From assembly GCF_002005225.1 (NCBI RefSeq), contig NZ_CP019724.1:1-64000 (forward strand): DNA of 64,000 nt. The letters run 5' to 3'. This document shows, one piece after another, positions 24,910 to 45,601 of this stretch; positions within the stretch are counted from its first letter, which is position 1; each line of letters starts with the position of its first letter. This DNA is from Streptomyces pactum. GTDB taxonomy: Bacteria > Actinomycetota > Actinomycetes > Streptomycetales > Streptomycetaceae. The notes below the pieces were generated by a model, which worked only from the letters and a program-made list of their open reading frames with translations, made no database searches and was not told the DNA's origin. Position numbers and translations under genes: made by a program.

Positions 24910-24927
24910 GGTGCGGACTGGCCGGGT

Positions 24928-28071: not shown

Positions 28072-28119
28072 CTTGGTGATGACGGTCACCCCTCCGCACC
28101 CTCACACGTACGCGGGCCT

Positions 28120-29586
28120 TCATGACGCGTCCTGCGCCGCAGCACCGTCGGGGTGATCACGGACCCATGACAGCCCGCCGAGGTCGAGACACTGGCGTGC
28201 CCGTGTGACCGCCACGTACGCCAGACGGGCTTCTGCCTCGTCGATCGGTTCGGGAGGCGTCGGAGCGCCCTCATAGCTGTCGACTGGGGCGAAGTCGTCG
28301 GCGATGAGCACGCGGGACCACTCCCGTCCCTTCGCTTTGTGCGCGGTGGAGACAGTCGCCTGCGCCTGTGGCTCGGAGACGAGCCGAGCTACGGCGTCGA
28401 GAATGGCATCGGTGCCGTGGCTGTCGACGAGGTTGACCAGCGGCTGCAGATCACGTCCCGCCGGGTCATAGGCTGCGTAGTCCTGGAGGTCGCCCCAGTG
28501 AGTGAAGAGGGTCAGCTCCGGGTGGTGGGTACGCCGGCCTTCTTTGAGGTCCCGGGCTGCCAGGGCAAGGGCCTGCAGACTCTCTCCTCCCCCGGCCAGA
28601 GCTACTCGGCTGCCGACGGCCATGAGCGCCATCACCTGCGCCATGGCACCGACGTTGGTGCGGCACAAAACGGCATCTGGTTGGGTGACGGTCCCGAGTT
28701 CTGTGGGGATGTCGGGGGTGCCGGTAAGGCGGAGCGGAGCGCCGGCGAGGTGGAGCCAGCGGTTGGCCTCTGCGGCAAGGTCGGGGCCGAAACGGAAGGA
28801 CTGCGACAAGGCCAGGCGGGTGCCGTCGAAGCCGGTCATGATGTCCTTGGCGCCGCGCCAGTGGTAGATGGCCTGTGCAGAGTCACCGACCATGACGAGC
28901 TGGGCGTGGCCGCGCTGGGCCAGGAAGACGTCTTCGACGACCGGATTAGTGTCCTGTGCCTCGTCCAGCAGGAGAAAGTCGGTGTCGAGCCGAGGTCGGG
29001 TGAGTGCCCAGATTTTCAGGTAGTGGTCGTGGTCGAAACGGACGGCGCCGCCGTCGGGGTGCTGCAGGTCGGCCCAGGCTTTACGGGCGAACGGAACGAT
29101 GTGGTCGGCGAGTTCAGTATGGCAGCCAGGATCTTCCAGGCCGCGCAGGCGGGGCACGTGGTGAGGAGCGATGCTCTCGTCGGCGGCATGACAGAAGCGG
29201 GAAACGGTACGCAGGGTCGCGTTGGAGAGAGCCATAGGGCTCACCTCCTTCTCGTCGATGCGGAGGGCCTTGGTGATGCCGAGGTCCTGCCCGCTCTTCC
29301 ATGCGGGGCGGCGGGGGGCGTTCAGACGGCGGCGGTATCGGTGGCCGATTGCCGCGTAGGCCAGGGCGTGGGCAGTTCTGCACTGAACGCTGCTGGGGAA
29401 CTGCGCGGCGGCGCTCTGGGCGATGGCCCGGTTGTAGGCGAGATAGCGGCCTCGGCGACTGGTGGTGCGAGCGAGCAGGTTGAGGGTGGTGGTTTTGCCG
29501 GTCCCGGCACCGGCCTGCAAGGACAGGTGATCGCCGTTACGGAAGGTGTCGGCTGCGGCGGTCTGCTCGTCAGTGGCGGTCACCAT
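28120..29586 (-). CDS. UvrD-like superfamily 1 helicase
   Basis: 488 residues. Walker A QAGAGTGKTTTLNLL (about 23-37), FLLLDEAQDTNPVVEDV (Walker B), MVGDSAQAIYHWRGA (motif III), SQSFRFGPDLAAEAN (motif IV), STAHKAKGREWSRVLIADDF (motif V) and LAYVAVTRARQ (motif VI). Compact, without the long 1B/2B insertions of UvrD proper; similar to FBH1-like helicases of plasmids. ATG at 29586 overlaps the stop of the upstream gene by several bases, so it is the third gene of a coupled operon (30892 to 28120). Complete, unlike the helicase at the left edge. Confidence 0.9.
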   Translation of the reverse strand: MVTATDEQTAAADTFRNGDHLSLQAGAGTGKTTTLNLLARTTSRRGRYLAYNRAIAQSAAAQFPSSVQCRTAHALAYAAIGHRYRRRLNAPRRPAWKSGQDLGITKALRIDEKEVSPMALSNATLRTVSRFCHAADESIAPHHVPRLRGLEDPGCHTELADHIVPFARKAWADLQHPDGGAVRFDHDHYLKIWALTRPRLDTDFLLLDEAQDTNPVVEDVFLAQRGHAQLVMVGDSAQAIYHWRGAKDIMTGFDGTRLALSQSFRFGPDLAAEANRWLHLAGAPLRLTGTPDIPTELGTVTQPDAVLCRTNVGAMAQVMALMAVGSRVALAGGGESLQALALAARDLKEGRRTHHPELTLFTHWGDLQDYAAYDPAGRDLQPLVNLVDSHGTDAILDAVARLVSEPQAQATVSTAHKAKGREWSRVLIADDFAPVDSYEGAPTPPEPIDEAEARLAYVAVTRARQCLDLGGLSWVRDHPDGAAAQDAS

Positions 29587-30059
29587 GGTACTGCTCCAGG
29601 GAAACGGGTCAGCGCGTGGCCGACGGCCGTCAGAAGGCGGGCGGGCGTGGTACCGATGAGGAGGTGATTCACAGCGCGGCTGAGACGCTCGGTTTCCTCC
29701 CTGTCGTACTGGGTCAGTTCTTGGTGCAGCGCCCGTTCCAGCACCTGTTCGGGGGTTTGACCGGCCTGCTCTGCTGTTCGGCCGAGGACGGCTCGAGTGG
29801 CGGGCGGCACAGAGACGTTGAGCAGAACCTGGCCATGCGTGTCCGGGTAGTGGGTGGTGATGACGTCGACCGGCAGGTGTTCACCGAGACGGCGGCGCAG
29901 ACGGTGGGCGGCTCGCCGGGCTGTCTTTCCGGGACAGAGTGCCATCAGGCGTGTGGCGTCGTGGTTGGCAGCGAGTGGGATGGAGCGGGTGGCTGCGCGG
30001 AGCTCGGCCGGACGAGCGGAACGGGTGAGCAGGACTTCCAGGGCGTGGTGGGGCATCAT
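29580..30059 (-). CDS. Unrecognised protein with a ribbon-helix-helix-like segment
   Basis: 159 residues starting MMPHHALEVLLTRSARPAEL. The middle, VLLNVSVPPATRAVLGRTAE followed by QAGQTPEQVLERALHQEL, reads as a beta strand plus two helices like a ribbon-helix-helix DNA-binding unit. Its start overlaps the DUF6083 stop as TGATG and its stop overlaps the helicase start. The context suggests a plasmid replication, partition or regulatory role but no family is recognised. Confidence 0.6.
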   Translation of the reverse strand: MMPHHALEVLLTRSARPAELRAATRSIPLAANHDATRLMALCPGKTARRAAHRLRRRLGEHLPVDVITTHYPDTHGQVLLNVSVPPATRAVLGRTAEQAGQTPEQVLERALHQELTQYDREETERLSRAVNHLLIGTTPARLLTAVGHALTRFPGAVPW

Positions 30060-30892
30060 CACGCTCCTTGGCAGGGTCGGCGCGACGGGCGTGGAAGCTG
30101 GGTGTGGATGTGGTCGGCGTGCAGGAGGGGGTCGAAGACCTTCCATTCGGTCTGGTCGAGTTCGACGGGACTGGCAACGTGGTCCGGGCAGTGTTGAGCG
30201 CGCCAGCGCAGTTGCTGGACCGGGTCGAGTCGGTCGAGATCGTAGACGGCCACCGGGAGCGGAGACTGGCCTGGGCTGTGCTTGGCGCGGACGGGCAGGA
30301 GGCGCCAGGTGCCTGCCGGGAAGCCGGCGTCCAGGAGGCGCTGGCCGCACAGGGGATGGTGAGGACGCTGTGCGATGCAGCGGATGTTGTCCAGTGGTGC
30401 GCTGGCCAGGTAGAGGGTCAGCAGGGCTCGTACGACCGGGCGGGCAGGGGTGGTGGACGGTTGCTCTGAGCGGTGCGGTGCGGGGGTGAGCAGGCCGGTG
30501 TCGATCAGGCGGCGGGTTCGCAGGGCGAGCCGGAGGCGGAGGGCGTCCAGGTGGGGCCGGGACTGTGACGAGTCCGTTCGGCGGGGGCAGACGAGCCGGT
30601 GTGGGATACGGCACCACGGGCTGCCGTCACCGCTCGGGTGGGCGATGCCTGCGCTGAGGTGCCAGCGGCAGTCCTCGGGGATTACGGCAGTGGCCAGTTC
30701 TGCGGGGTGCAGGGCAATGAGTCGGTGATCCGCGCGCGGGAAGAGCTCGATCGGGTTGCCGCAGGCGTAGCAGCGGCGAGTTTGACCGGCAGTCGGAAAT
30801 CGGTCTGGGCTGGTGGCGGTTGTTCGTAGCGGTCGCCTGCGGGGGCGCGCGGTGTGAGGGATGCCGTGCAGGCGGGTGAGGTGGGAACGCAT
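30059..30892 (-). CDS. DUF6083-type zinc-binding protein
   Basis: 277 residues. Contains RRCYACGNPIELFPRADHRL, IALHPAELATAVIPEDCRWH, LSAGIAHPSGDGSPWCRIPH and RLVCPRR, the spaced Cys/His pattern I associate with DUF6083 proteins of Streptomyces. Rest is Arg/Pro-rich with no clear domain; a second cysteine-rich stretch lies at LCGQRLLDAGFPAGTWRL. First gene of the coupled three-gene operon with the RHH-like protein and helicase. Function unknown. Confidence 0.6.
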   Translation of the reverse strand: MRSHLTRLHGIPHTARPRRRPLRTTATSPDRFPTAGQTRRCYACGNPIELFPRADHRLIALHPAELATAVIPEDCRWHLSAGIAHPSGDGSPWCRIPHRLVCPRRTDSSQSRPHLDALRLRLALRTRRLIDTGLLTPAPHRSEQPSTTPARPVVRALLTLYLASAPLDNIRCIAQRPHHPLCGQRLLDAGFPAGTWRLLPVRAKHSPGQSPLPVAVYDLDRLDPVQQLRWRAQHCPDHVASPVELDQTEWKVFDPLLHADHIHTQLPRPSRRPCQGA

Positions 30893-31062
30893 GCGCGGAC
30901 CGTGTCAGGCGACACGCTGTGATCGGCGCAACGACAGCCGAGGATCCCGCGAACGGCCCAACACTCGCGAACGTGTGAGCGGAGGTGCGTATGCGAGTGC
31001 GACTCTCCCTCGCCTCTTCGGGTGATTCGCTGCGGCGTGATTTTCAGGGCGTGGCCGGTTGG

Positions 31063-31326
31063 TCAGGTGTCGTTGCCGCCCGGCGGGGTGTGGTTGCCGC
31101 AGAGCACCGCAAGCAGGTGCTCGATGGGTACGTCGAAGACGTGGGCGAGGGCGTGCCAGGTGGTGAGGTTGCCGGGGGTTCGACCGTGTTCGAGGTCGAT
31201 GAGGGTGCGGCGGGCCAGGCCACTGCGGTTGGCGAGTTCGTCGAAGGTCCAGCCGCGTTCGCCCCGCAGGCGTGCGAATTCCACGCGTAGTGCGCTGAAG
31301 TCGGGATCGGGGGGCAAGATCGTCAC
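31063..31326 (-). CDS. XRE-type repressor
   Basis: 87 residues: FARLRGERGWTFDELANRSG then LARRTLIDLEHGRTPGNLTT and WHALAHVFDVPIEHLLAVLC, a complete XRE helix-turn-helix. The frame also opens further upstream (31401), but the GTG at 31326 is chosen because three operator-like repeats lie at 31341-31422, which would otherwise be inside the gene. It faces away from the gene at 31500, so it likely controls both promoters. Confidence 0.8.
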   Translation of the reverse strand: MTILPPDPDFSALRVEFARLRGERGWTFDELANRSGLARRTLIDLEHGRTPGNLTTWHALAHVFDVPIEHLLAVLCGNHTPPGGNDT

Positions 31327-31340
31327 TCCACCATCCGACG

Positions 31341-31422
31341 GTGCAGAAGCCTGCCCTGTCAGTGCGGGTTTCTGCACTATCTGCGCTGACGAGAGTGACA
31401 TTCACGGTGCGGAAATCTGCAC
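31341..31422. promoter_or_regulatory. Three operator-like repeats in a divergent promoter
   Basis: GTGCGGGTTTCTGCAC at 31362-31377, GTGCGGAAATCTGCAC at 31407-31422, and a weaker related copy GTGCAGAAGCCTGCCC at 31341-31356. Each good copy has inverted GTGC/GCAC ends. They lie between an XRE repressor gene and a divergent gene, as expected for autoregulation. Confidence 0.65.
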
Positions 31423-31499
31423 TAGCGTTCTGGCCGTCCTGGCGCCTGCTGCCAGGACGCCTGTCAGACCAGTTGTGTTCACGGGAGGACGACGAGCCG

Positions 31500-32531
31500 A
31501 TGAGGCTGGCCGGTACACAGGCCGCGGTGCGGCGCGTCTGGACAGTCGAGCTACGCCCGCGAGCGGGAGGGCCGAGACTGTTCTGCATCCAGTGCAAGGC
31601 CCACACACACCCGGTGGATGTGTCCTCGGCCCGTTCGGCGGCCCTGACACATCTGGCCAGCCACGCTCGTGCCGAGGCGTTGCCCGGGCACCTGCGCACG
31701 TGCCAGTGCCGCGCCCTGGGCTGTACGTGGCATTCCCGCAGCCGAGGCTGCGGGGGGCTGGTGCTCCTGGCGCTCACCCGCCAGGCGGGCGGGCGCTCCT
31801 GGCGCCTGGCCGACGCCTGCGCCGCCTGCGCCGCAGCAACCAGCGAGACCGCCGTCGTGCCGGACACGCTGCTCGGCGCACGCCGGCCCAAGCCGGCGGG
31901 AGGCATCTTGCGGCGCGCCCACCACGGCCTGTCTCCGGGGCCCGACGAACGGGCCCGTGTGCGGGAGATGCTCACCTACCTGTCTGCCACGCTCCCCCAG
32001 TTCACCTCACCCGCTGCCCGGCTGCTCGCCCTGCAGTGCGCCCTGCGCTCGGACACCCGGGGACATGTCACTGTCGCGGACGGGCTACTGCGCAGCATGC
32101 GGCTGCGCGGGCGCCGGGAACTGTGGCTGGAGCTGGCTCAGGCCGGATGGCTGGAGACGACCAGTCCCCGGCCCGGATCCGTGGCCGTACGGCTACTGGA
32201 CGCCACCGTGCTCGACCAGGCGCCAGGCCGCGGCGCGCGGCGCCGCGCCGCTCACTGGGCGCTGCACCCGACGCCCCTGGTGCTGCCGGCTGCGGCTCCC
32301 GCTGTGTTGCGGCTGACCGCTCTCGCGCTCGCGTCACATACCTTCCGCACGGAGGATTTGGATGCTGTGTCCCGCCTGTGCGGGAACTCCCCGCAGCAGA
32401 CCATGGAGTTGCTCGACCGGCTGGTGTCGGCTCGCACACTGGCGGCCTGGCATCACCACCAGGACACCGATGAAGTGCTCTGGCAGTTCCCGCAACAGCT
32501 ACCACGGTATTCGGCAGACCGGGACAGCTAA
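31500..32531 (+). CDS. Unrecognised protein with a cysteine-rich N-terminal part
   Basis: 343 residues starting MRLAGTQAAVRRVWTVELR. Early cysteines (RLFCIQCKAH, HLRTCQCRALGCTWHSRSRG, DACAACAA) suggest metal binding; the C-terminal half has several helical segments that look like a winged helix near LDAVSRLCGNSPQQTMELLD. GGGAGG precedes the ATG at 31500. Divergent from the XRE repressor and probably regulated by it. No family recognised; a plasmid replication or regulatory role is possible. Confidence 0.6.
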   Translation: MRLAGTQAAVRRVWTVELRPRAGGPRLFCIQCKAHTHPVDVSSARSAALTHLASHARAEALPGHLRTCQCRALGCTWHSRSRGCGGLVLLALTRQAGGRSWRLADACAACAAATSETAVVPDTLLGARRPKPAGGILRRAHHGLSPGPDERARVREMLTYLSATLPQFTSPAARLLALQCALRSDTRGHVTVADGLLRSMRLRGRRELWLELAQAGWLETTSPRPGSVAVRLLDATVLDQAPGRGARRRAAHWALHPTPLVLPAAAPAVLRLTALALASHTFRTEDLDAVSRLCGNSPQQTMELLDRLVSARTLAAWHHHQDTDEVLWQFPQQLPRYSADRDS

Positions 32532-32738
32532 CGCTGCAACCCGCGGCGTCCGGACCAGGAGTACGCATGGACGTGGTCCGGGATGACCAATCCTCATCTC
32601 TCATCCGTACTATCTCCGCACGGGGGTATGCGCGGCAGGTGCTGTGCAGCGGCTTTCCTCTCAGGCGCAGCCAGCACATCCGCGCCCGGCAGTTACCTCC
32701 CCTCCCCGTCCCTCACGCAACCAAGGAGAACCAGCGCC

Positions 32739-33389
32739 ATGTCGGAGACATCGAACACAACCGAAGTGGCCTCGCAGTATGCCGTCCAGGTGGCCGGCGA
32801 CCTCGAGCGCAACGCCAAGGAGCAGGAGCGCATCGGCGCGGACATCGCCACGCTGCAGGAGAAGCTCACCGCCCTGCAGCAGGACCACAATGTGCTGGTA
32901 AACATCCAGCAGGCACTGGCCGCCACTGTGCCCGCACCGGCTGCTGAGAGCACCACCGTGCCCTCGCCCCGCAAGAAGACGGCCGTTGAGCCTACCGGCG
33001 GCAGGCGCTCGCAGGCCGAGAAGACCACGGCCTCGCGGGGTCGCACAGCGGCCAAGGGGCCCGTCGCCAAGAAGGCACGTGCCGCCAAGGCTCCGGCCAA
33101 GGCAACAGGGGCGAAGAGCGACGCGCCCACCCTCGTCGAACTCGTCCGCCTTCACCTTGCCGCGCAGAGTGAACCGCGGTCCGCCGCAGAGGTCTCTGCC
33201 GGGCTGAACCAGGCCCATCCCGAACGTGCTGTCCAGACCACCGTGGTTCGCAACACGCTCGAAGGTCTCGTTGCCAAGCAGCGTGCCCAGCGCACCAAGC
33301 AGGGCTCCTCGGTCTACTACACCGCCACCGGTGGGCCCGAGCCCGTTGCTGCTTCCGAGGTCGCTGCACAAGCCGAGAAGAGCAAGTAG
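32739..33389 (+). CDS. Coiled-coil, Lys/Ala-rich linker and winged-helix protein
   Basis: 216 residues. Residues about 15-70 form a coiled coil (VAGDLERNAKEQERIGADIA, TLQEKLTALQQDHNVLVNIQ); 85-140 is a Lys/Ala/Pro-rich, histone-tail-like linker (KKARAAKAPAKATGAKS); the end is a winged-helix fold (TLVELVRLHLAAQSEPRSAA ... VVRNTLEGLVAKQRAQRT, then SSVYYTA). AAGGAGAA before the ATG at 32739. Probably binds DNA and oligomerises through the coiled coil; could be a nucleoid-type or partition protein. Confidence 0.7.
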   Translation: MSETSNTTEVASQYAVQVAGDLERNAKEQERIGADIATLQEKLTALQQDHNVLVNIQQALAATVPAPAAESTTVPSPRKKTAVEPTGGRRSQAEKTTASRGRTAAKGPVAKKARAAKAPAKATGAKSDAPTLVELVRLHLAAQSEPRSAAEVSAGLNQAHPERAVQTTVVRNTLEGLVAKQRAQRTKQGSSVYYTATGGPEPVAASEVAAQAEKSK

Positions 33390-33749
33390 AAGCCCAAGCC
33401 CGCTGCGCTCGCCGCCCGCAGACTGGGCTGTGTGGTTGTCACATCACCGGCGACATAGCGTTGGCACGACGGGCCTGGCCCGGAGCGGGCGGCGGAGAGC
33501 CAAGGACGTCCGCCCTCTCCAGCTTGCAGCCCTGCTTGATATCACGGCTGAGCCACCAACTCGGGTCAAGCAGGCCGGCCACAGCTGGATCGCGCCCGAT
33601 GCACTGCGTCATGACGTCCATCGCTTGCGCTTCCGCATGGCGGCAGCCGTCGTTCCGCCAAAGTCCCAAGGGTCCTGGCCGGTTGGGTTCCCTGTCCTCC
33701 CCGTGAGGGGATCATGCTGCCATTCTGGCTATACCGATCGTGGCGCCGT

Positions 33750-34350
33750 CTTCTCACCTGATGCGGTGGCGACCGCCATCGCACTTGCGGCTGCGCCACT
33801 ACGCTACTTCGGTGCCCGGGCCGGCGCGAAGGCCACTGTGCAAGCCGTCCGCGAACAGACCCGAAGCGCCGCCGACCAGCAGGCACTCACAGCCCGCCGC
33901 ACTGTGTATGCAGAGTTCGCCCGGGGCGCGGTCCGAGGCGGTCCTGCACGTGGACCAGCAGGTTGAACGGATTCGGCGCGCCGCTGGGAAGTTGCCACCG
34001 GAGTGGCGAATGCTGGCGAGAGCCTGGAGCAACGTGCCTGGTCTCCGGGAGCGCTGGGAAGAGGAACGAAGGCCGTCCCCCGCGCGAAGCTTCTGAGCTT
34101 GAGGATTTGGCCGCGCTGGTCGCTCTGCTCAGAGGCGGCGTGCACCCGAATGCGCTGAAGGAGGCCGTCCAGCTTGGCCTTCTGCCCCCGAGGGATGCTG
34201 AACGGATCACATCATACTCGGTCCAATGGCCCGATGATGAGCCGCTGGAACGGGGTCGGCAGCAGCTTCAGCCCATGAACGAGGCTCTGGGTGCGTTCAT
34301 ACGCGAGGCTCACTTGGTTCTGCATCCGCCAGAAGTGGAACGGACCGCCC
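33750..34350 (+). pseudogene. Possible degraded gene spread over three frames
   Basis: Protein-like segments follow one another in successive frames: LRYFGARAGAKATVQAVREQ near 33800, then VERIRRAAGKLPPEWRMLAR near 33965, then LEDLAALVALLRGGVHPNAL near 34105. The order and spacing fit a small Streptomyces hypothetical protein hit by frameshifts, but GC-rich DNA can produce such appearances by chance. No other gene is visible in 33390-34457. Confidence 0.35.
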
Positions 34351-34457
34351 GGACCGCCCGTGACCGACCGATGCCGATCCAGTTCAGACGGGAGGAACCT
34401 TCACTCTACGCCTCGCACACAGCGGGGGGCCGTTGGCCGCACGAGTACACAGAGCCG

Positions 34458-35180
34458 TCAGCGAGGGCGCCAAGTGCGTACTTCAAGATGGAGAATCTGG
34501 GCTTCGGGGCGGATACGGCCGGTCTCCGAGAGCCACTGGTGCACGGCGGCGGTAACGTCACCGCCGGCGGCGTCCACGCGGCGGGCGAAATCGGTCGCAT
34601 CGAAGCCGCCGGTCTGGGCGGAGCCGTAGGAGCGTTCTTCGGTGTGGTCAGCGCGCTGGGTGACATCGCGGCGGATCCCGGGTGAGTCGGTGCGGCTGCC
34701 GGAGGGATGCACATAGGCGGTCTTGGCGAGGCGGACCGTGAAGGCCAGGCGCAGGCCGCGGAGTGCCGCTTCGGCAATAAGGGGGCGCAGGCGGGCGGAC
34801 CCGGAGGCGATGGCCTGGGAGGCGACGCGGCCGGTGCCGGAGCCGGTCGGGGTGATCAGCAGGGCTTTGGTGCGGACGCGGGCGCGGGTGCCGGAGGCGG
34901 TGGTACGGCGGGTGGTGTGGCGGGCCGCGATGGCGGCAAGTTCGGGCAGGTCGGTGATCCCGCCGGTTTCGACGGCGGTGAGGACCTGGCGCAGGGCGGG
35001 GACGAAGGCTGCACCTTTGTTCCTGGAGTAGAACTGCGAGACCAGGGAGGGGTCGCGGTCGATGATGCGGGCGATGTCACGTTTGGTGTAGCCAGCCTGC
35101 TGGAGCCGGTCGGCGAGCTGAGCAGCTTCGTTCCTCCCTGTGTCCTGCGAGGAGCGTCGGCGACGAGTGCGGGGCGGCAT
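34458..35180 (-). CDS. DNA-binding protein with HTH, coupled to the polymerase-like gene
   Basis: 240 residues starting MPPRTRRRRSSQDTGRNEAA. A clear helix-turn-helix, ADRLQQAGYTKRDIARIIDR then DPSLVSQFYSRNKGAAFVPAL, occupies about 20-65; a basic centre and a C-terminal helical part (ARRVDAAGGDVTAAVHQWLS) follow. Its ATG overlaps the stop of the 700-residue gene as TGATG. A large protein followed by a small HTH protein recalls the Tap-Tpg and Tac-Tpc telomere operons of Streptomyces linear replicons, but I see no clear similarity to Tpg, so this is only an analogy of layout. Confidence 0.65.
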   Translation of the reverse strand: MPPRTRRRRSSQDTGRNEAAQLADRLQQAGYTKRDIARIIDRDPSLVSQFYSRNKGAAFVPALRQVLTAVETGGITDLPELAAIAARHTTRRTTASGTRARVRTKALLITPTGSGTGRVASQAIASGSARLRPLIAEAALRGLRLAFTVRLAKTAYVHPSGSRTDSPGIRRDVTQRADHTEERSYGSAQTGGFDATDFARRVDAAGGDVTAAVHQWLSETGRIRPEAQILHLEVRTWRPR

Positions 35181-37282
35181 CAGGCCTCCTGCCGGGTGAT
35201 GGCGTGGGTGGCCCTTCCAGCGTCCCGAAGGGTGAGGAGTTCCTCCTCGGTGGTGGGAGCGGTGACGGGGCCGGTGAGGTGGCCGCGCAGAAGGTAGTCG
35301 CCGGGCTGGTGGTGATAGGGCCAGTTCTGGTGCTGGGTGAGGTAGAGGGCATCGGTACGGAAGGCGACGACGGTGCCGGGCGGGGTGTGCAGGGCTCCGG
35401 CGTAGGCGTTGTCGTCGCGGTGGCGCTGGCTGAGGAGGGCAGCGCGGGCACCGGACCAGATGGCGGCGGCCCATTCTGGGTGGGCGTTGGGGTCACGGCT
35501 GAAGCCGGTGGGGCGCTGCCAGGTGATCTGCTCGTCGTCGAAGCCGATGATCTCAGCGTCCGGGGGCAGGTCGCGTTCCATGGTGCGGGGAGTGGTGCCG
35601 GTGACCATGCGGGGACGCTGGGCGAAGGAGCCGATGCCGTACAGGAGGATGGCGCGTACGGCGCGGGAGGCGAGGTGGGCGGCGCGGGCCTGCTGGGGGT
35701 CGCCGTGGATCTGGGCCTGGGCGGTGAGGTTGGTCCAGGTGTCTTTGAGTTTCTTGGCCCAGTCGTCGAGGGGCTTGCCGTCTTCCCAGAGGATGCCGTC
35801 GAGGATTTCGATCTTCCACGGCTGAAGGGGGTTGGTCAGGGCGGTGTGGAGTTCGGGGCCACCGGCCCAGGTGGTGAAGGTGGTGCCGGCAGTGGCGGGG
35901 TAGTGCCAGGCCCGGTCGCCCGGGGCAGGCGCCGGGAGGAGGCCGACGTGGTTCCAGCCGTCGGGCACGGTGACGCGGACGTGCCAGTGGCCGCAGCCGT
36001 ACAGGGCGCGGATCTGTTCCTTCTCACTCCAGGAGGCGAAGGTGGCGGAGGGGATGCGGCGGGGGGTGCCGACCGGGGATTTCCAGGTGTGTTTGGCGTA
36101 GGCGAAGGTACGGTCGTATTCGACCAGTGCGGGAAGCTGTTCAGGTACGCGGGGCGGGGCGATGAGTTCGTTGCGGCCCTGGCCGGCGGTGGCGTGGAGC
36201 AGGCCGCGCAGTTCTTCGGACAGGACGGGGAAGCCGTCAGCGTGCTGGCCGCGTTGGGGGATGGTGCGGGTCCACAGGTCGCGGCCGGTCTGCGAGGGGG
36301 AGCCCATGAGGACGGCGTCGTTCCAGTGGCGGCGCAGGGCCTGCCACAGGAGGACGAAGGCGTCGCGGACGGTGGCGGGGGTGTCGTTGGTGTCGAGGTC
36401 GAACCACTCCCCCACCGAGCGGATTTCGACGTGGGTGGTGCCGTCGTTGCTCTGGTAGCGGCCGACGGGGTTGCGGGCGTGGACGAAGTGTCCGGCCATG
36501 CGGTCGCGGCCGCGGCCGGTGTCGGTGCGCCAGCCGGGGGTGGGGGCGTTCAGCCAGGCGGTGACTGCGTCGCGGAGGTAGGGGTAGCGGTCTGCCTCGC
36601 GGTGCCAGGGGTCTCCGGCGGTGATGTAGATCCGCTCCACGCCGTCGGGGACGGTGTGGAAGACGGCGGTGAGGATGTCCGCTGCTGAGCGGCCTGCGAG
36701 GTCCAGGTGGTGGGTCTGGTGGCGATGCACGAGGACGCCGGTGGCGGTGTCGAGGAAGACGGTGGACCGTGCCTGCTGCGTGAAGCTCGGTCGTGTGGAG
36801 GCCAGGTCCGCGGTGTGGGAGAACCAGGCGTCGCCCACTTCTCCTGGAGGAAGGGTCGGCAGGGTCCGTGGCGTGTCCGGTGCCTCGGGCGGGGCCGGGG
36901 CACCGACCGGTTCTGTGAACTTCTGCGGAGGCGGCGGGGTGGGCGGTGCGTTGTTCGTTGCGGGGGCTGCTGTCTGCGGGTGAACCACCGGCCGGTCGTC
37001 GGTCTCGTGCATGGTGGCTTCGGAGGGTGTGGTGGGCTCTAGGGCCTCGCGGGCGGCAAGGTCGTCTGGGGCCAACTCGGGGGCGAGGGCGACGATGTCG
37101 GCGACGCTCATCCCGGCTGCTGGGGCGATGCGTTCGGCCTTGGCTTTGCCGTAGGCCGCCACGCGGGTGATCCGCTGGTCGCGGTCGGTTTCCAGCTTTG
37201 CCAGCTCTGTCCGCAGCTTCTTGATCTTGTCTCGCACGGTGCGCAGTTCGGCAAGCGCGGCGTTGTAGCTCTGTGCGTCCAT
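35180..37282 (-). CDS. 700-residue protein with divergent family-B DNA polymerase-like motifs
   Basis: Residues 1-60 form a coiled coil (TVRDKIKKLRTELAKLETDR), 100-150 is Pro-rich. From about 320 the order of elements resembles protein-primed family-B polymerases: ATAGQGRNELIAPP (364-377; compare the GGR-E region), VEYDRTFAYAKHTW with Asp390 (motif A position), ASRAVRAILLYGIGSFAQR (538-556; motif B position, Arg in place of the usual Lys), and VVAFRTDALYLT with Asp644 (motif C position). The exonuclease domain is not obvious. GGAGGAAACCCG precedes the ATG at 37282. Upstream is an HTH gene, downstream a coupled HTH protein. If the reading is right this is a replication or telomere-type polymerase, or a catalytically altered relative; otherwise it is a large unknown plasmid protein. 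Confidence 0.55.
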   Translation of the reverse strand: MDAQSYNAALAELRTVRDKIKKLRTELAKLETDRDQRITRVAAYGKAKAERIAPAAGMSVADIVALAPELAPDDLAAREALEPTTPSEATMHETDDRPVVHPQTAAPATNNAPPTPPPPQKFTEPVGAPAPPEAPDTPRTLPTLPPGEVGDAWFSHTADLASTRPSFTQQARSTVFLDTATGVLVHRHQTHHLDLAGRSAADILTAVFHTVPDGVERIYITAGDPWHREADRYPYLRDAVTAWLNAPTPGWRTDTGRGRDRMAGHFVHARNPVGRYQSNDGTTHVEIRSVGEWFDLDTNDTPATVRDAFVLLWQALRRHWNDAVLMGSPSQTGRDLWTRTIPQRGQHADGFPVLSEELRGLLHATAGQGRNELIAPPRVPEQLPALVEYDRTFAYAKHTWKSPVGTPRRIPSATFASWSEKEQIRALYGCGHWHVRVTVPDGWNHVGLLPAPAPGDRAWHYPATAGTTFTTWAGGPELHTALTNPLQPWKIEILDGILWEDGKPLDDWAKKLKDTWTNLTAQAQIHGDPQQARAAHLASRAVRAILLYGIGSFAQRPRMVTGTTPRTMERDLPPDAEIIGFDDEQITWQRPTGFSRDPNAHPEWAAAIWSGARAALLSQRHRDDNAYAGALHTPPGTVVAFRTDALYLTQHQNWPYHHQPGDYLLRGHLTGPVTAPTTEEELLTLRDAGRATHAITRQEA

Positions 37283-37303
37283 CGGGTTTCCTCCGGGCCG
37301 GGC

Positions 37304-37900
37304 TCAGGCTGTGGCGTTTGCCGGGACGTAGGCGACCGCGCCGCCAGAGTGTGAGACGAGGCGGGTGCCCAGCAGCAGTCCGGCAAGGTGAGGGTCGTCG
37401 TTGACGTGGGACGTCATGACGGTGTGCGGAGTGACCAGGTCGGTGACGTAGCCGGCGAGGCGGGCCTTGGGGAACGCGTGGCGGCCCTGGGTGTTCTTCT
37501 CCCACTGTTGAAGGCCGGTCAGTACGGCCACGACGTAACCGGACAGGGTGACCGGCAGCACCTGTCCGGCTGCTACTGCGGCGGGATCACAGCGCCACCA
37601 GCCGCGCAGAGCGCTGAGTAGGTCATCTGGTGCGAGGAAGGAGGAGAACCCCGTCCAGGCACGGTCGGGTTCCTTGGCTGGCTGGACGGTGTCGACACGC
37701 AGGACGGCGACCTCTGGGGAGTCCAGCTGATCGAGGGGGGCGTGGTGGCGGGTACTGAGTGCTTGGACGGCCTCTAGCGGGACCATGACGCGGACACCGC
37801 GCCGGGACAGGCCGGGTAGGAGCTCCGCGCGCACGAGGCGCCGGAAAGTGGTGATGGCACAGCCGAGTTCTTCCGCTGCCTGGCCTGTCGTCAGTAGCAT
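37304..37900 (-). CDS. Excisionase/MerR-like helix-turn-helix protein
   Basis: 198 residues. N-terminal winged HTH MLLTTGQAAEELGCAITTFR then RLVRAELLPGLSRRGVRVMV, as in excisionase-type DNA-binding proteins. The rest, including DLLSALRGWWRCDPAAVAAG and VTLSGYVVAVLTGLQQWEKN, is unrecognised. The ATG at 37900 has AAGG before it, better than an ATG 15 bases upstream. First gene of the operon with the polymerase-like and HTH genes; 21 bases separate it from the next start. Confidence 0.7.
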   Translation of the reverse strand: MLLTTGQAAEELGCAITTFRRLVRAELLPGLSRRGVRVMVPLEAVQALSTRHHAPLDQLDSPEVAVLRVDTVQPAKEPDRAWTGFSSFLAPDDLLSALRGWWRCDPAAVAAGQVLPVTLSGYVVAVLTGLQQWEKNTQGRHAFPKARLAGYVTDLVTPHTVMTSHVNDDPHLAGLLLGTRLVSHSGGAVAYVPANATA

Positions 37901-38483
37901 CGCACACCCTTGCATGCCAGATCACATATTTGATTTGGGATGCTAGTGATCACCCGGACAGGAGTCAAAGCCCGGCGACGACGATGCGGAACACAGAAGG
38001 CCGTCGCCGGACTCATCTGTTCCTGGCGCACGGTCCAGGCATCCGCTCAGGCCCGCACCGGGCCCCGGCCCGTGGGGGCGGAGTGTCTTGCCAGCAAGCA
38101 GGTCCTGCGGCTTCGTCGGTGGTCCGAATGATGTCGCCTCCAAGTGCGTGATCGGGAGGGTGGTCTGAGCCCGCTCGGGCAAAGAGCACTGCGGCCGTTC
38201 ACGTCGACGGTGGTCCCGGCTTCGACGTCAGGAACCCGATGATCTCGCGCCCTGAGGCTCCGCCCCGACCAGGCCCGAGCCTGGGCCTGGGAAGTGCAGT
38301 CGGTGCAGACCGTCGCGAAAGTTGCCGCAGATGGCGGGAAACCCGCGAAGTCGTTCGATCGAGTGTTGGCAAGGCGAACTCAGACCCATCCCTCGAACGT
38401 ATGCACTGGCTTCTCGTTCATCCTGGGCGCCGAGGCGGCGCGGCCCGGCCTGCAGACCGTATGCGGCTGGCAGCCTCCAGCGC
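37901..38483. other. Intergenic region, about 580 bases
   Basis: Divergent region between the HTH operon (minus) and the 472-residue gene (plus). Slightly A/T-rich just upstream of 37901, where the operon promoter would lie. No tRNA, repeat array or coding frame supported. Confidence 0.4.
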
Positions 38484-39902
38484 ATGTCCTCTAGCTTTCA
38501 TGACTCTGTGTGGCCTGATGGTGCGATTGATGCTTCCTCCGCGCGGCGGGCCCTGTGGAGCGTGCGTTCGTGCGAGGTTTCGACGATCGCGTGCCCCACT
38601 TGCGGGGCAGCGAGGCGTCAGGCGTGCCGCACTTTGCGGGACCGGCCCACGCGGGCCCTGCACCGCAGCCGCACCGTCCGCTATCTGAAGATGCGCTTCG
38701 CCCTGGATCTGGTCGAGCCGCATGTCCGGCCAGTTCGCCACCGGACCGGACCCGTACTCGCGGGCGCTGGACTGGAGGCGACTCGGGTACCGCACCCGCA
38801 GCCGTGGCGGCTTCCGATGCAGGAAGTGGCGGACCTGGTCCATGTGAGTTTCCTCGACCTGGCCAAGGTCGTAACGGCGCATGCATGTGGGCTCCGGCGG
38901 ACCGGCCTGGATGAGCTGCTCTTCGGCCCGGACTGCATCCAGCAGAGCATCGACGCCCTCACCTATGCGATGCACGACCGGCAGATCCGACGTGAGATGT
39001 ACGTCCTGGGCGGCGGCCGCTCGGAAGAGGGCGAGTTGTTGGCGGCACAGTGGCGGTCTGTGCGTGGCCGGCTGCGCGATGCCGAAAGGCTCCTCAAGGA
39101 GCAACGCGTGGCGGATCTTACGGCTGCGGGCATTCTGCCCTTCCCGACAGCAACCAGCGATCCACGGCGTCTGGCGCGGATGTGGCTGGGCCGCTACCTC
39201 CCCGATGAGAAGGAAGCCTTGGTGCGTGGCTTCGCGGCAGAGGCGGGAGTGGCGCCCTCGGCCACCGTTCATATCAGGTCCATTCCGGAGAAGATCAAGC
39301 GGTGCATCGACAACGGGTGGCTTGTCGCGCCACTCACGGACGCGGTGGAGCAGTTACTCGAACTGGACAGGCGGGCCTTCCGGCAGCGTCTCATGGTCGA
39401 TGCCGGCCGGAACGACACTCGCGACGACGCACTGTGCCATCCGCTGCTGCTCAATCGATGGCGCGATCAACTCAACGAGGTCCTCGCCGACATCGCGCCG
39501 AGCGCAGAGAACTCGCATACCCGGCACCTTCATGACCTCACGCTCACGGGCACGGCACGAAGCGCCGCACAGCTCGAGCGACTCCACGGCCGCCGGCGCC
39601 TGTTTGCCGCGCTGCTGCAGCGACGCTCGGAATGCATCCGGCTGATCACTACGCTCAACGACGCCATGTCCCTGGCGGAACGCCGAGACCCCAGTTATGA
39701 GGTGCTGAAGAGGGCCGGGGCCCGGGCCTACGACGAGCTCGTCCGCCGTCACCCCGCCCTCTACCAGCTCATCCGCGCCCGCCTGGCTCCGTACGAGACT
39801 GGCCCGGGCCGCCTTGAGATCACGGGTTCACGTGCACGGCTCCGTGATCAGATCTTCGACGAACTCGACTGCCTGTCCACCTCCTCTAGACCCGGCTGCT
39901 AG
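38484..39902 (+). CDS. Unrecognised 472-residue protein with N-terminal zinc finger
   Basis: Starts MSSSFHDSVWPDGAIDASSA at 38484, though the ribosome site is poor and a later start is possible. Residues 36-65 hold IACPTCGAARRQACRTLRDR and ALHRSR, a Cys/His pattern like small zinc fingers of Streptomyces mobile genes. The remainder is mostly helical, with a repeated Arg/Leu-rich pattern (RSVRGRLRDAERLLKEQRVA; RLFAALLQRRSECIRLITTL) that could be coiled coil. The stop TAG at 39900-39902 lies within the CTAG target of an IS5-type element; its reading frame is intact. Confidence 0.6.
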   Translation: MSSSFHDSVWPDGAIDASSARRALWSVRSCEVSTIACPTCGAARRQACRTLRDRPTRALHRSRTVRYLKMRFALDLVEPHVRPVRHRTGPVLAGAGLEATRVPHPQPWRLPMQEVADLVHVSFLDLAKVVTAHACGLRRTGLDELLFGPDCIQQSIDALTYAMHDRQIRREMYVLGGGRSEEGELLAAQWRSVRGRLRDAERLLKEQRVADLTAAGILPFPTATSDPRRLARMWLGRYLPDEKEALVRGFAAEAGVAPSATVHIRSIPEKIKRCIDNGWLVAPLTDAVEQLLELDRRAFRQRLMVDAGRNDTRDDALCHPLLLNRWRDQLNEVLADIAPSAENSHTRHLHDLTLTGTARSAAQLERLHGRRRLFAALLQRRSECIRLITTLNDAMSLAERRDPSYEVLKRAGARAYDELVRRHPALYQLIRARLAPYETGPGRLEITGSRARLRDQIFDELDCLSTSSRPGC

Positions 39903-39920
39903 GCCGTGTCTGACAAATGA

Positions 39921-40810
39921 TCACGCTGTGGTGTCGCGGAGCCACAAGATGAGCGAGGCCAGGTGCAGTCCTGACTGATAGCGGACGGCGAGCTTGTCGA
40001 AGCGGGTCGCGATTGCGCGGAACTGCCTGAGTCGGTTGAAGCAGCGTTCGACCACGTTGCGGCCTTTGTACTGCTCTTTGTCGAAGGCCGGTGGTCGTCC
40101 GCCGCGGGTGCCGCGTCGCTTGCGGTTAGCCACCTGGTCTGATCGTTCGGGGATGGCGGCCCGGATGCCGCGTTTCCGAAGGCTGGCTCGGATGGCCCGT
40201 GAGGAATACGCCTTGTCGGCCAGCACCCGGTCGGGACGGCGTCGCGGCCTGCCGACCGTGGCGCGGGGTACCTTGATGGCGTCCAGTACCGCGTCGAACA
40301 TCGTGGAGTCGTTCACGTTCCCGGCGGTCACGACAAACGACAGGGGCAGGCCACGGCCGTCCGCTGCCAAGTGGACCTTTGTGGTCAGTCCGCCGCGGGA
40401 CCGGCCGAGGGCCTGCCGCGCCGCCGAGCGTTGTGGATCTTCCAGTTTGTCCCCGTCCAAGTCCCCTTTTTCCCGGCTCCGGCGGAGTGCTGGTGAGCCC
40501 GGTTGATGGTGGAGTCCACCGAAACTGTCCACTCCAGGCGGCCGACCGCATCGTCACGGACCTGAACGTGCTCCAGCAACCGGGCCCACGTGCCGTCGGC
40601 TTCCCACCGGGCGAACCGCTCGCAGACCGTCTGTCACGGCCCATAGCGCGTCGGCAGGTCCCGCCACGGAGCCCCGGTCCGCAAGCGCCACAGCACCCCG
40701 TCGATCACCTGCCGGTGGTCCCGCCACCGCCGCCCTCGACCATCCAGCGCCGGCAAGAGCGGAGCTATCCGCTCCCACGCCGCATCCGTCAACTCACCAC
40801 GACCAGCCAC
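39921..40810 (-). pseudogene. IS5-family transposase, two frames, with an internal stop
   Basis: The first frame starts at the GTG at 40810 (ELTDAAWERIAPLLPALDGR; VIDGVLWRLRTGAPWRDLP) and meets a TGA at about 40634 where the family has Trp (RYGP-stop-QTVCERFARW). Beyond the stop the same frame continues with LLEHVQVRDDAVGRLEWTVS and DSTINRAHQHSAG, then a -1 shift at an A5G4 run (40471-40463) leads to the second frame: QALGRSRGGLTTKVHLAADG and VLADKAYSSRAIRASLRKRG, ending LILWLRDTTA. The shift is a plausible programmed site; the TGA is a real lesion. Confidence 0.85.
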
Positions 40811-40814
40811 AAGA

Positions 40815-41213
40815 TCAAGTATGAGACTTCGCTGCATTGGGGCAGTCCACGACTTCAGCGAAGTAGGGCCAGCCGTTCACTTTGAGGTTCTGCACCGATG
40901 GCCGGGTGTCCAGAGCAGGCGCCGCGGCGTCGAGCAGGCGTCGAACCGTTCCGGGCTCGTAGAGGTTGAGCCAGGCGCGGTCCGGGAGGCGCACGACCGT
41001 GCCCGCCTCGAAGTGCGAGTTCGAAACGATTCTGTCCGGGCCCGGGGCAAAGACCAAGGCCAATCGACGTCGAACGCCCTGCGCCGTGACCTCTGGGAAG
41101 AGTGAAAGCGTCAGCCGGCAGTCAGCGTAGTCCGGTTTCACTCGCTGCCGGACAGTCCAACACCAGACAGCCTCGTCGACCACGAGGTGGCGGACACGTC
41201 GATCGTTCCCCAT
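40815..41213 (-). CDS. Passenger gene of the IS5-type element, unknown function
   Basis: 132 residues: HLVVDEAVWCWTVRQRVKPD, then CRLTLSLFPEVTAQGVRRRL, ALVFAPGPDRIVSNSHFEAG, RAWLNLYEPGTVRRLLDAAA and VQNLKVNGWPYFAEVVDC. Codon use is coding-like throughout and the gene ends five bases before the transposase GTG, so the two would share a transcript. I do not recognise a family. Since it lies inside the inverted ends it moves with the element; it may also be a captured 3'-truncated host gene. Confidence 0.6.
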   Translation of the reverse strand: MGNDRRVRHLVVDEAVWCWTVRQRVKPDYADCRLTLSLFPEVTAQGVRRRLALVFAPGPDRIVSNSHFEAGTVVRLPDRAWLNLYEPGTVRRLLDAAAPALDTRPSVQNLKVNGWPYFAEVVDCPNAAKSHT

Positions 41214-41431
41214 CGAGCCAGCGTAGATCGTTGGCCTGGACGAATGGCTTTTTTAGACGACGCGGTCACCCCCATCGTGATCGTTTGTCAGACGCGGCCT
41301 AGCCGCGGTCAGGTCAAGGAGGTCCCAGGAGTCACTGACTGCCACTGCCCATAGCCGTTCCCCATGTCAGCCAACGGGCCTGCACGAACTGAAGAGGGGC
41401 GGGTCTTGCGAGCCCCCGAGAAGGGATTGTC

Positions 41432-42004
41432 GTGGTAGGCACCGGGCAAGAAGCCGCGGGACTGGTCGGCGCTCCCGACGAGGTGACCGTGCGTGACCTG
41501 GCCCGTCTCCAGACGCAGGCACTGAGCGACTACCTGACCCGGCACGCCGGCAACGACTCCCTCGCAGAAAAGGCCCTGCTGTCCTGTGCCGCCAGCGGAT
41601 ACCGGTCGCGTGACGACTTCGACAACGTGCTGCGCCGCCACAGCTGTCCCGACACGGTGCTGCTCCGCCTCACCGAGCGCCTGCGCACCCGCCTTGGCGG
41701 CGGGCCTTCCTGGCGTGAGACCTGGACCCAACTGGTCCTGAGCAGAACGGGGGCCGATCCGGCACTCGTGCGCGCCCCGCCGGCCTGGACGGCGCTGCGC
41801 GCCCGGGGCGACTACCACGCAACCGCGCACGCCGCTGTGGTCACGGCCGTACGCGAGGCTCTGGGAAGTGACCAGGAGGCATGGGACCGCTTCGCGGCCT
41901 GCCCCGCCACTCACTCCGGCCCCACCGCCTGGCTGCGCCTGGGCGACTTGCTGGACGCAGCCGCCACAGGGAGCCCGTGGCCGAAGCCGCCGGGCAGCCG
42001 ATAA
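41432..42004 (+). CDS. Unrecognised 190-residue protein
   Basis: GTG at 41432 with GAAGGG shortly before. Features: VTVRDLARLQTQALSDYLTR, LRRHSCPDTVLLRLTERLRT and EAWDRFAACPATHSGPTAWL. Soluble, mostly helical, no motifs recognised. Before the IS insertion it would have lain about 130 bases after the 472-residue gene on the same strand, so it was probably the second gene of that unit; the element now separates them. Confidence 0.55.
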   Translation: MVGTGQEAAGLVGAPDEVTVRDLARLQTQALSDYLTRHAGNDSLAEKALLSCAASGYRSRDDFDNVLRRHSCPDTVLLRLTERLRTRLGGGPSWRETWTQLVLSRTGADPALVRAPPAWTALRARGDYHATAHAAVVTAVREALGSDQEAWDRFAACPATHSGPTAWLRLGDLLDAAATGSPWPKPPGSR

Positions 42005-42121
42005 GCCCCGCCATGGCCTCAACGGGCACGAGGCCCTCTCACCGAGCAGCAACGCGTGCCAGGTCTGCGCTGAATTCCCGCAATTCCGGCGACGGGCGTG
42101 GCGCAGACTTGACCAACTGCG

Positions 42122-43008
42122 CTACAAATCGGGCTTGTTTGGAAATGCAGGAGGGGGCATCAGCCCCGGCCCGCCCGGCTGCCACGGACCCGTGGCCTGA
42201 TCCGCCATGGCGAGAAACGCCGTGGCTCTATCGGTCGGAGCCAGGTAGGTGACCTCGGGCACCGTGACCGTGGCACCGTCGTCCATGTACAGGGAAATGG
42301 TGAAGGTGTAGATCCAGGGCATCGATCCCTCTCCGTACCGCTCGGCCCCACCGTGAACGCAACCCGCTCCTGAGCATGCGGCGGCAGGGTGTACTTCATT
42401 TTCCGGGGGATGACGGCTCCCTCGCGGGCTTCGGCCGGGATCTTGATGTCGTACTGCGCAGTGATGTCAGTCGGCCCGGCCCCGTAGCGGCAGAACACCT
42501 CAGCAGCGGAGACAAGGTTCACTTCGGCACGGGAGATCAGAACGGGATTGTCTGCGCTGTTCCTCAGCGTCGCGCTGACGACGGATGCGGGTACCCGAGC
42601 CTGTTCGGTGACTTGTCCGTCGAAGACCACATCGGCAGCGACGTTCTGCTCCCGGTGGACGTCCGAGTCGACCAGTTCGACCGCCGGCACCGGTTCGGGC
42701 TCAGGTTTGGGCTGCACGTCGGGCCAGAAGAGAAAGATCAGTCCGGCTACCCCAGCAATCGCCGTAACAACGGCGCCGACGATCTCGAGCATCCTTTTCT
42801 GCTTGTGCCAGAACCCTCCCTCCGGCTGCGGGCCGCTGTCCCCGGTTTCCGCTGCCGCCGCATCACCTTCCGGCCGTGTGGAGCCCTGACCGCCCTCATC
42901 GCTCGTTCGTCTGCCTGACCGCGGCCGCGCAGCGCTGCCGCTTGCCCCTTCCCCCGAAGGCCGACACTGCTCCCCCTCATGTAATCCGTCTGTCTCTCCA
43001 GAGCTCAT
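42122..43008 (-). pseudogene. Single-pass membrane protein with a one-base frameshift near its end
   Basis: ATG at 43008 preceded by GGGAGGAGAAGGGT. A charged, Gly/Ser-rich cytoplasmic stretch is followed by a membrane helix (MLEIVGAVVTAIAGVAGLIF) and an extracytoplasmic domain (AADVVFDGQVTEQARVPASV ... KYTLPPHAQERVAFTVG). At about 42338 a GGGG run appears one G short: the frame then turns to Arg/Pro-rich sequence, whereas the next frame continues RYGEGSMPWIYTFTISLYMD and VTVPEVTYLAPTDRATAFLA to a stop at 42122. Either a recent mutation or a homopolymer error; the repaired product would be about 295 residues. No family recognised. Confidence 0.65.
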
Positions 43009-43151
43009 ACCCTTCTCCTCCCTTGCCCCCATGGCAGCCATCCACCCACGCGTAGCCCAGCGACGGTTCCGCGCAAAAGACCATCACCGACCCGAACCCA
43101 GGTGGGGCCGGCGCCCTGCCAGGGTGCCTCGCGTACCCGCAGCCTTCGCCG

Positions 43152-43181
43152 CCGGGCAGTGCGTCCCAAGGCACTGCCCGG
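43152..43181 (-). terminator. Perfect 11-bp hairpin after the sigma-factor operon
   Basis: CCGGGCAGTGC and GCACTGCCCGG around an eight-base loop, 42 bases past the stop of the SigB-like gene in its direction of transcription. Position and strength fit a terminator. Confidence 0.8.
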
Positions 43182-43222
43182 GAGCGGGTAACGCGAGCAC
43201 GGAAGGTTCTGTATAGGGAAGT

Positions 43223-44233
43223 TCACTCCTCCGCAAGTAGCCTCTCTCGCAGCTGGGCCAGTGTGCGCGCCAGTAGCCGGGAGACGTGCATCTGGGAGAT
43301 GCCGATCTCCTGCGCGATCTGCGATTGGGTCATGTTGCCGAAGAAGCGCAGCAGCAGGATCCGCTTCTCGCGCGGCGGGAGGCTTTCCAGCAACGGCTTG
43401 AGGGACTCGCGGTACTCGACGCCCTCGAGTGCCTCTTCCTCGACTCCCAGGGTGTCCGCGACCGCCGGGGACTCGTCGTCGGTGTCGGGGACGTCCAACG
43501 ACAGTGTGGAGTACGCGTTCGCGGACTCCAGGCCCTCCAGGACTTCCTCCTCCGAGATCGACAGCTTCGTGGCCAGCTCGTGGACCGTGGGCGGTCGGCC
43601 TTGTTCCTGCGACAGCTCCGCAGTGGCCGTGGTGAGCGCAAGGCGCAGTTCCTGAAGGCGCCTGGGTACACGCACTGCCCAGCCCTTGTCACGGAAGTGG
43701 CGTTTGATCTCACCGACCACCGTCGGGGTCGCGTACGTGGAGAACTCCACGCCACGCTCCGGGTCGAAACGGTCGACCGACTTGATCAGACCGATGGTGG
43801 CGACCTGGGCGAGGTCGTCCAGCGGCTCATCGCGGTTGCGGAAGCGGCGTGCGAGGTGCTCCACGAGCGGCAGATACATCCGGACCAGCCGGTTGCGCAG
43901 CTCGGCGTACTCCGGGCTGCCGCCTTGCATCGCGCGCAGTTGGAGGAACATCGCTCGCGCGTCACTACGGTCGGCGTCGGACGACGTAGTGCGAAGGGGC
44001 TGCTGGGGGGTGGGCTGTGTCTTGGTCCGCCGCTTGACTCTGGCCAGCGCGGACTCGACGTCCTGGGCCGTGGCCATGAGCGATCCGATCGGTCCTTCAC
44101 TGGCCATGAGGGTTTCTCGCAGCGCGGCAATGTCGTCCTTGTCGTGGTGGTCGGCCCTCGCCGCCTTCCGCCCGCGACGGACCGCCCCCGCAGGCAGTGC
44201 GGCAACTTCATCCTCGTCGTGGTGGCCGGTCAT
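43223..44233 (-). CDS. SigB/SigF-family RNA polymerase sigma factor
   Basis: 336 residues. An N-terminal extension of about 100 residues with two His/Asp/Glu-rich copies (TGHHDEDEVAALPAG; DHHDKDDIAALRETL) precedes the sigma core: RLVRMYLPLVEHLARRFRNR, DEPLDDLAQVATIGLIKSVD and FDPERGVEFSTYATPTVVGE (region 2), AVRVPRRLQELRL and RPPTVHELATKLSISEEEVL (region 3), LPPREKRILLLRFFGNMTQS and QIAQEIGISQMHVSRLLART (region 4). Typical of the stress-type SigB/F/G/H group. Its ATG overlaps the ECF-like gene stop as TGATG. Such factors are normally held by an anti-sigma factor; none is adjacent here. Confidence 0.93.
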   Translation of the reverse strand: MTGHHDEDEVAALPAGAVRRGRKAARADHHDKDDIAALRETLMASEGPIGSLMATAQDVESALARVKRRTKTQPTPQQPLRTTSSDADRSDARAMFLQLRAMQGGSPEYAELRNRLVRMYLPLVEHLARRFRNRDEPLDDLAQVATIGLIKSVDRFDPERGVEFSTYATPTVVGEIKRHFRDKGWAVRVPRRLQELRLALTTATAELSQEQGRPPTVHELATKLSISEEEVLEGLESANAYSTLSLDVPDTDDESPAVADTLGVEEEALEGVEYRESLKPLLESLPPREKRILLLRFFGNMTQSQIAQEIGISQMHVSRLLARTLAQLRERLLAEE

Positions 44234-45563: not shown

Positions 45564-45601
45564 AAAGTTGCGCCTGTCTGTCGGGCACCGAAGGGGCGAG
45601 C

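Follow-up and report, generated by a model that had tools for sequence, protein, structure and literature searches.

A Tac/Tpc-type gene pair in the terminal repeats of a Streptomyces pactum chromosome probably encodes a divergent phi29-fold polymerase and its protein primer

What is the function of a 700-residue protein with traces of a family-B DNA polymerase that is encoded near the end of a Streptomyces chromosome, in a gene that overlaps the gene for a small helix-turn-helix (HTH) protein? The window analyzed here consists of bases 1-64000 of the one-contig Streptomyces pactum genome (NZ_CP019724.1; 8,550,793 bases). On its minus strand lie a 203-residue HTH/excisionase-like gene (37304..37915), the 700-residue gene (35180..37282) and a 240-residue HTH gene (34458..35180), in that order, as a putative three-gene operon. 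The TGA of the large gene (35182-35180) overlaps the ATG of the small gene (35180) in a shared TGATG; mechanical extension of the small open reading frame reaches 35474, and we took the ATG at 35180 as its start. The upstream protein matches HTH_17 just below the cut-off (expectation value E 9.6e-6; 26.2 bits against 27) and excisionase model TIGR01764 with 18.7 bits (cut-off 28.8). An earlier note on this DNA had described the large reading frame, its overlap with a small HTH gene and an excisionase-like gene in front; all three are present, the last with both matches below cut-off. The telomere proteins Tac and Tpc of SCP1 were reportedly described by Huang in 2007. We propose that the window pair is probably a Tac/Tpc-type telomere replication module, composed of a divergent phi29-fold polymerase and an HTH protein primer. 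This proposal rests on the predicted fold, the register of motifs B and C, conservation, gene coupling and location in the terminal repeats.

The structure of the large protein was predicted without templates and with high confidence. The six best fold matches in the PDB were all phi29 polymerase, well ahead of the remaining matches and led by the polymerase-terminal protein complex 2ex3, and the leading match in a viral structure library was a tectivirus DNA polymerase. The structural alignment stops at phi29 residue 522, leaving unmatched the thumb, which we take to be about residues 530-575; TPR1 and TPR2 could not be delineated in the match. Relative to phi29 polymerase, the protein carries an HTH-like segment and an added N-terminal helix (residues 3-42; 37157..37276, minus strand). 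The latter corresponds to the coiled coil of the earlier note, is predicted as a single long helix, and is absent from the pLMV7, pCSL1 and Curtobacterium homologues in our alignment. The model thus supports the identification of the large protein as a divergent DNA polymerase with a phi29-type family-B fold. This agrees with the family-B, protein-primed reading that had been made from the letters alone; a structure with no palm domain, which would have spoken against it, is contradicted by the model, in which the palm appears to be kept.

Direct sequence similarity is weak, and a resemblance seen mainly in a model could be an artefact, in which case the protein would have a new fold or would be a primase from a different superfamily. 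A 2017 paper reportedly presents Tap, the large protein of the Tap/Tpg telomere operon, as a primase. We scored three overlapping family alignments (A1, A2 and A3, of which A3 is built on the type found in the small element pSCO2) against a polymerase profile, with 200 column shuffles for each. The profile score exceeds all shuffles in every case (32.6 versus a best shuffle of 31.9 for A1, 32.2 versus 28.0 for A2, and 37.7 versus 33.2 for A3), and Pfam family-B matches occur in 17 of 55 family members. Together with a high-confidence template-free model in which phi29 polymerase leads the fold search by a wide distance, these results make an artefact very improbable.

Several observations nonetheless weigh against the polymerase assignment. 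The A1 score is above its best shuffle by a narrow margin, and the highest A3 shuffle also comes close. The window protein has no Pfam match at E<=0.1; matches to PF03175 scored 19.7, 15.0 and 14.1 bits, all below the cut-off of 25.8, and 2 of 10 family members scanned singly match PF03175 at E<=0.1. The family profile found four matches among PDB sequences, with no polymerase among them. Probabilities from hhalign against polymerase were low (0.1-24%), the best local stretch being either motif B or a run up to D390 that was out of register, and hhalign -glob was uninformative. Pfam, NCBIfam and PHROGs scans, and hhalign against phi29 polymerase alone, gave little for the window protein. The alignments considered below show two more features. 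The aligner placed D390 on phi29 N234 rather than on D249, and the D390-D249 pairing follows from that of Y395 with Y254 only if the stretch is read without a gap. No ExoI acidic pair could be recognized, the exonuclease sites being unreliably aligned and ExoI itself unaligned. D178 (25/38 homologues) is located where the match begins and can on that ground be assumed to be the ExoI Asp; in that case its acidic companion is not conserved (position 180 is A in 10/38 and D in 4/38).

Conservation was counted over 38 homologues, and phi29 residue numbers were checked by residue identity. D390, Y395, G551, P602, E603, W609, R613, D644 and G661 are invariant (38/38). In the full-length profile alignment, R543, G551, F553, R613, T643 and D644 lie opposite phi29 K383, G391, F393, R438, T457 and D458, and R642 lies opposite D456. 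These residues define a motif A region (residues 386-396, with D390 and Y395; 36095..36127), a motif B region (residues 543-556, with R543, G551, F553 and A554; 35615..35656) and a motif C region (residues 641-646, with T643-D644 and with R642 replacing the first Asp; 35345..35362), all on the minus strand. The register holds in A1 and A2, equivalent residues are aligned in A3, and Y395 lies opposite phi29 Y254 in all three. R543 is kept in 37/38 homologues, with Lys in the remaining one, and position 642 is R in 27/38, A in 5 and N in 3. The polymerase landmarks, the Arg at the motif-B Lys and the single motif-C Asp that had been picked out in the earlier note were therefore seen correctly.

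Metal binding in better-studied family-B enzymes depends on the Asp of motif A and the second Asp of motif C; a protein without the first motif-C Asp is therefore not necessarily a dead enzyme. Both metal-binding Asp residues are most likely retained in the large protein. Because the first motif-C Asp is replaced, we call the protein a divergent relative and not an orthodox family-B member. The same substitutions, one lost motif-C Asp and Arg at the motif-B Lys, could suit a family-B fold that acts as a binding scaffold, tethering the terminal protein while a host DinB polymerase synthesizes. The accessible portion of PMC4513846 describes a requirement for DinB1 or DinB2, implicates DinB enzymes in end patching and recounts an older tether model for Tap. 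However, a dead scaffold would not need D390 and D644, which are invariant in 38/38, and the same text reports for the SCP1 pair that purified Tac, with no other polymerase added, nucleotidylates Tpc and then extends it by a short stretch. We therefore regard the scaffold as improbable and retain the view that the large protein is itself a polymerase.

The small partner (predicted model with a predicted local distance difference test of 79.1 and a predicted template modelling score of 0.50) combines an HTH with a conserved basic stretch and a domain at the C-terminus. Its fold search returned mainly HTH proteins, and no terminal protein, that of phi29 included, was among the matches listed, an absence that weighs, though not decisively, against the primer role. 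The case for that role therefore comes from the coupling of the two genes and from what is published on Tpc. T148 is kept in 14 of 15 aligned partners and is invariant in a 39-sequence alignment, making it a candidate priming residue.

The two genes are kept together as a unit. GTDB genomes contain 145 stretches that encode relatives of the large protein, and we examined the best 80 of these 145. A partner match is present in 80/80 loci; taking the nearest in-frame start for the partner, the stop codon shares 1 or 4 bases with the start codon in 67/80, with other spacing in 12 and one locus unmeasured. Partner retention and the profile scores, narrow as they are for A1, indicate that the earlier note had seen more than chance. 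A homologue of the upstream gene lies <=400 nt upstream in 48 of the 77 loci with enough upstream sequence. Five loci are on contigs >8 Mb; a contig end is 1.6-12.5 kb away for four of them (L023, L027, L070 and L074) and about 248 kb away for the fifth (L081). A protein search recovered 536 relatives at E<=0.001 among 7,996 candidates scored, and among the 120 best of these, those that bear a name are mostly called "hypothetical protein" and sometimes "Mucin-19". The closest protein relatives of the window proteins are from Streptomyces. A tblastn search of 72,556 plasmid records found relatives of the large protein in 57, of which 30 belong to Streptomyces or Kitasatospora, and relatives of the small protein in 27, all from these two genera. 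More distant relatives of the large protein, with a smaller gene directly after, are found on Micrococcus pLMV7, a linear plasmid (PMC3869321), and on Clavibacter, Curtobacterium, Cutibacterium and Kineococcus plasmids.

The connection to Tac and Tpc comes through two of these plasmids. The available text of PMC8743542 lists SCP1, pSCO2 and pFRL3 with SCP1-type telomeres and states that pSCO2 carries tac and tpc. We found one matching pair on pSCO2, encoding 645- and 199-residue proteins: the large protein is 33% identical to that of the window (E 1e-50), and the Tpc-like partner is 31% identical by tblastn to a relative on plasmid BB1-1-1. The pFRL3 large protein is 60% identical to the window protein. 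Both pSCO2 ends read GGGGGGCAGAGG, matching the SCP1 start of up to six G followed by C that is given in the excerpted PMC4513846. The sequence at the right end of pFRL3 is GGGGGGGCGGGG, whereas the deposited left end is different. Tpg is absent from both plasmids. A gene annotated as DNA polymerase IV lies ~2 kb downstream of the pFRL3 pair (L004 7877-8142). In the excerpts at hand, Tac-Tpc homologues are reported in Kitasatospora viridifaciens (PMC7188733), and none in the strains of PMC7205883; we found such a pair on pKVP2, under locus tags that differ from those of the PMC7188733 homologues.

The arrangement of a large gene followed by a coupled small HTH gene fits the terminal-protein operon layout recognized in the earlier note. 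Its description of the system as undescribed holds in part: the pair is of the published Tac/Tpc kind, and the polymerase ancestry was not seen in published work. Tap and Tac are said to lack any polymerase motif and to form "a new class", and Streptomyces to encode no family-B polymerase, in the consulted sections of PMC4513846; in the parts of the open-access literature available to us, no polymerase assignment of Tac was found.

Some results argue against equating the window pair with the SCP1 telomere system. The assignment is indirect, via pSCO2 and pFRL3. The closest plasmid large protein (94.7%) is that of BB1-1-1 (NZ_CP134205.1; L103, L111), which has a different, palindrome-rich right end and carries Tpg in addition to Tac/Tpc genes. 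The left end of BB1-1-1 is presumably an archetypal telomere, and the plasmid is probably a hybrid replicon. The ends of the S. pactum chromosome offer no direct comparison, since the true telomeres are missing from the assembly: a 447-residue open frame runs off the contig at base 1, and for the 120 bases that follow from there, folding does not exceed that of shuffled sequence (z 0.26, versus -7.76 for the palindromic left end of BB1-1-1). In addition, among genomes of the genus, Tpg is over its cut-off in 18 of 27 carriers of Tpc-like genes versus 110 of 151 overall, and four genomes (G243, G327, G341 and G349) possess Tpg as well as a long contig that bears a Tpc-like gene.

Those surveys also bear on whether the module serves the chromosome. 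Position 1..64000 is the left end of the chromosome contig, and the right end, taken as four stretches, is its exact reverse complement over all 64,000 bases; an identical second copy of the large gene lies at 8513512-8515611. The genome has no match to Tpg family NF047541, and its one resemblance to Tap (NF047542) is an N-terminal match of 75.7 bits against a cut-off of 600. As a control, the Tpg search exceeded the cut-off in the 110 of 151 genomes noted above, this genome being one of the 151. A Tpc-like match at E<=1e-20 was found in 38 of 393 genomes, this one included; the Tpg search took in 27 of the 38, since the matches of the other 11 were short or broken. We considered a general exclusion between Tpg and Tac/Tpc, which the carrier frequencies do not support. 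In G000, G066 and G272, a single contig bears two inverted, widely separated Tpc-like copies, an arrangement like that of terminal repeats, and none of these genomes has Tpg over cut-off, which with n=3 is suggestive only. Tap was over cut-off in none of nine genomes picked for lacking Tpg (nearest, G189, 557.6 of 600 bits), and this joint absence is likewise only suggestive.

We considered whether the pair is instead a plasmid-borne module that works now, or worked in the past, for a linear plasmid, with the chromosome ends kept by another, unrecognized system. This overlaps with our proposal, in that the same enzyme is kept and its target may differ. The relatives in 57 plasmid records, the frequent presence of Tpg beside Tac/Tpc (including G243, G327, G341 and G349) and the several telomere classes without known proteins in the available part of PMC8743542 all favor it. 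However, the pair lies in both terminal repeats of a one-contig genome that lacks a Tpg match and any Tap over cut-off, and the three genomes with inverted copies, few as they are, point the same way. We consider the plasmid module unlikely, although the most plausible of the alternatives, and by analogy we infer that the pair acts like the SCP1 pair on this chromosome.

If so, internally started replication would leave a 3' overhang at the chromosome end, and this overhang would fold and be acted on jointly by the HTH protein and the polymerase. The polymerase would join the first nucleotide to a hydroxyl of the HTH protein and add a short DNA stretch before another polymerase takes over, and the HTH protein would remain on the 5' end as a cap.

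The terminal repeat contains other genes. A 672-residue protein with AAA_15 and OLD-like TOPRIM domains, then a 491-residue UvrD helicase, are encoded at the chromosome end (286-3779, minus strand); we take them to be a Gabija-like GajA/GajB pair. CRISPR genes for Cse1 and Cas3, presumably type I-E, lie at 53418-61456 (plus strand) and are present twice because they are inside the repeat. These genes elsewhere in the window could hint at a defence polymerase, an option that the earlier note had left open. The two genes, however, stay together on plasmids and at chromosome ends alike, including two plasmids with G-run telomeres, and no coupled defence gene was seen among the annotated neighbors examined, except AbiEi/AbiEii downstream on a Curtobacterium plasmid. 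The defence option is thus unsupported, and we give it almost no weight beside a telomere role. A DEAD/ResIII helicase with three helicase-associated domains (4427-6682, minus strand) may, we assume, be related to telomere-linked helicases; on pKVP2, a helicase-associated-domain protein also follows tpc. An SbcC/Rad50-like ATPase (6761-9769, minus strand) and, ~2 kb upstream of the operon, a transposase with a DDE domain (39921-40532, minus strand) are also encoded.

Where might such an enzyme have come from? A search with the pSCO2 protein listed 64 clusters, among them that of the query; in 63 the longest contig is <=19,658 bases, and many of the contigs come from metagenomes, where short contigs are common in any case. 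pSCO2 itself (L005 1-19314) encodes a terminase-like ATPase (E 1.3e-17), an endolysin, a minor-tail-like protein and the Tac/Tpc-like pair. The short contigs and the phage-like genes point to small linear phage-like elements that share the enzyme. Tectiviruses carry family-B polymerases, according to the accessible part of PMC6950372, and we considered pSCO2 as a tectivirus; no Tac relative was found in phage records by tblastn with either the window or the pSCO2 protein, and IMG/VR scans confirmed no viral contig with a relative. We tentatively suggest, at slightly less than an even chance, that the SCP1-class telomere polymerase is a reduced phi29-type enzyme without proofreading residues and thumb, shared with pSCO2-type elements of <20 kb, and that the chromosome-end system was taken over from protein-primed mobile elements. 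If this is true, bacterial linear-chromosome maintenance would be tied to such elements, and Streptomyces would encode a family-B polymerase where the excerpted PMC4513846 says that there is none. A Tac that is a reduced phi29-type polymerase would solve, for the Tac branch, the puzzle of its having no polymerase motif. The catalytic residues of Tac would become testable, and the missing thumb match would offer a candidate structural cause for its short products. The results also suggest how several hundred related proteins (536 scored) might be annotated.

Compared with the phi29 and tectivirus polymerases, the window protein shares the predicted overall fold, the register of motifs B and C and an adjacently encoded partner protein. 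It differs in its lost first motif-C Asp, Arg at the motif-B Lys, lack of a recognizable ExoI acidic pair, a match that ends at phi29 residue 522, an added N-terminal helical region and an HTH-type partner. Like Tap/Tpg, the pair would form a telomere protein operon of a large protein and an HTH protein primer, in a genome where neither Tap nor Tpg has a match over its cut-off; according to the consulted part of PMC4513846, Tap and Tac are not homologous. pSCO2-type elements have a Tac-like polymerase (33% identity) and a Tpc-like partner, in contrast carried on an element of 19 kb that also encodes a terminase-like ATPase, an endolysin and a minor-tail-like protein. SCP1 Tac/Tpc differs in that the window pair lies in both chromosomal terminal repeats, and in that the polymerase ancestry goes unrecognized in the available text of PMC4513846. 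In both cases, a two-gene unit on a linear replicon encodes a large protein and then a smaller HTH primer protein, with homologues of the window pair on pSCO2 and pFRL3, plasmids with SCP1-type telomeres. The window partner has 240 residues and an N-terminal HTH, and SCP1 Tpc, encoded downstream of tac, has 259 residues and an N-terminal HTH (PMC3572947, in excerpt).

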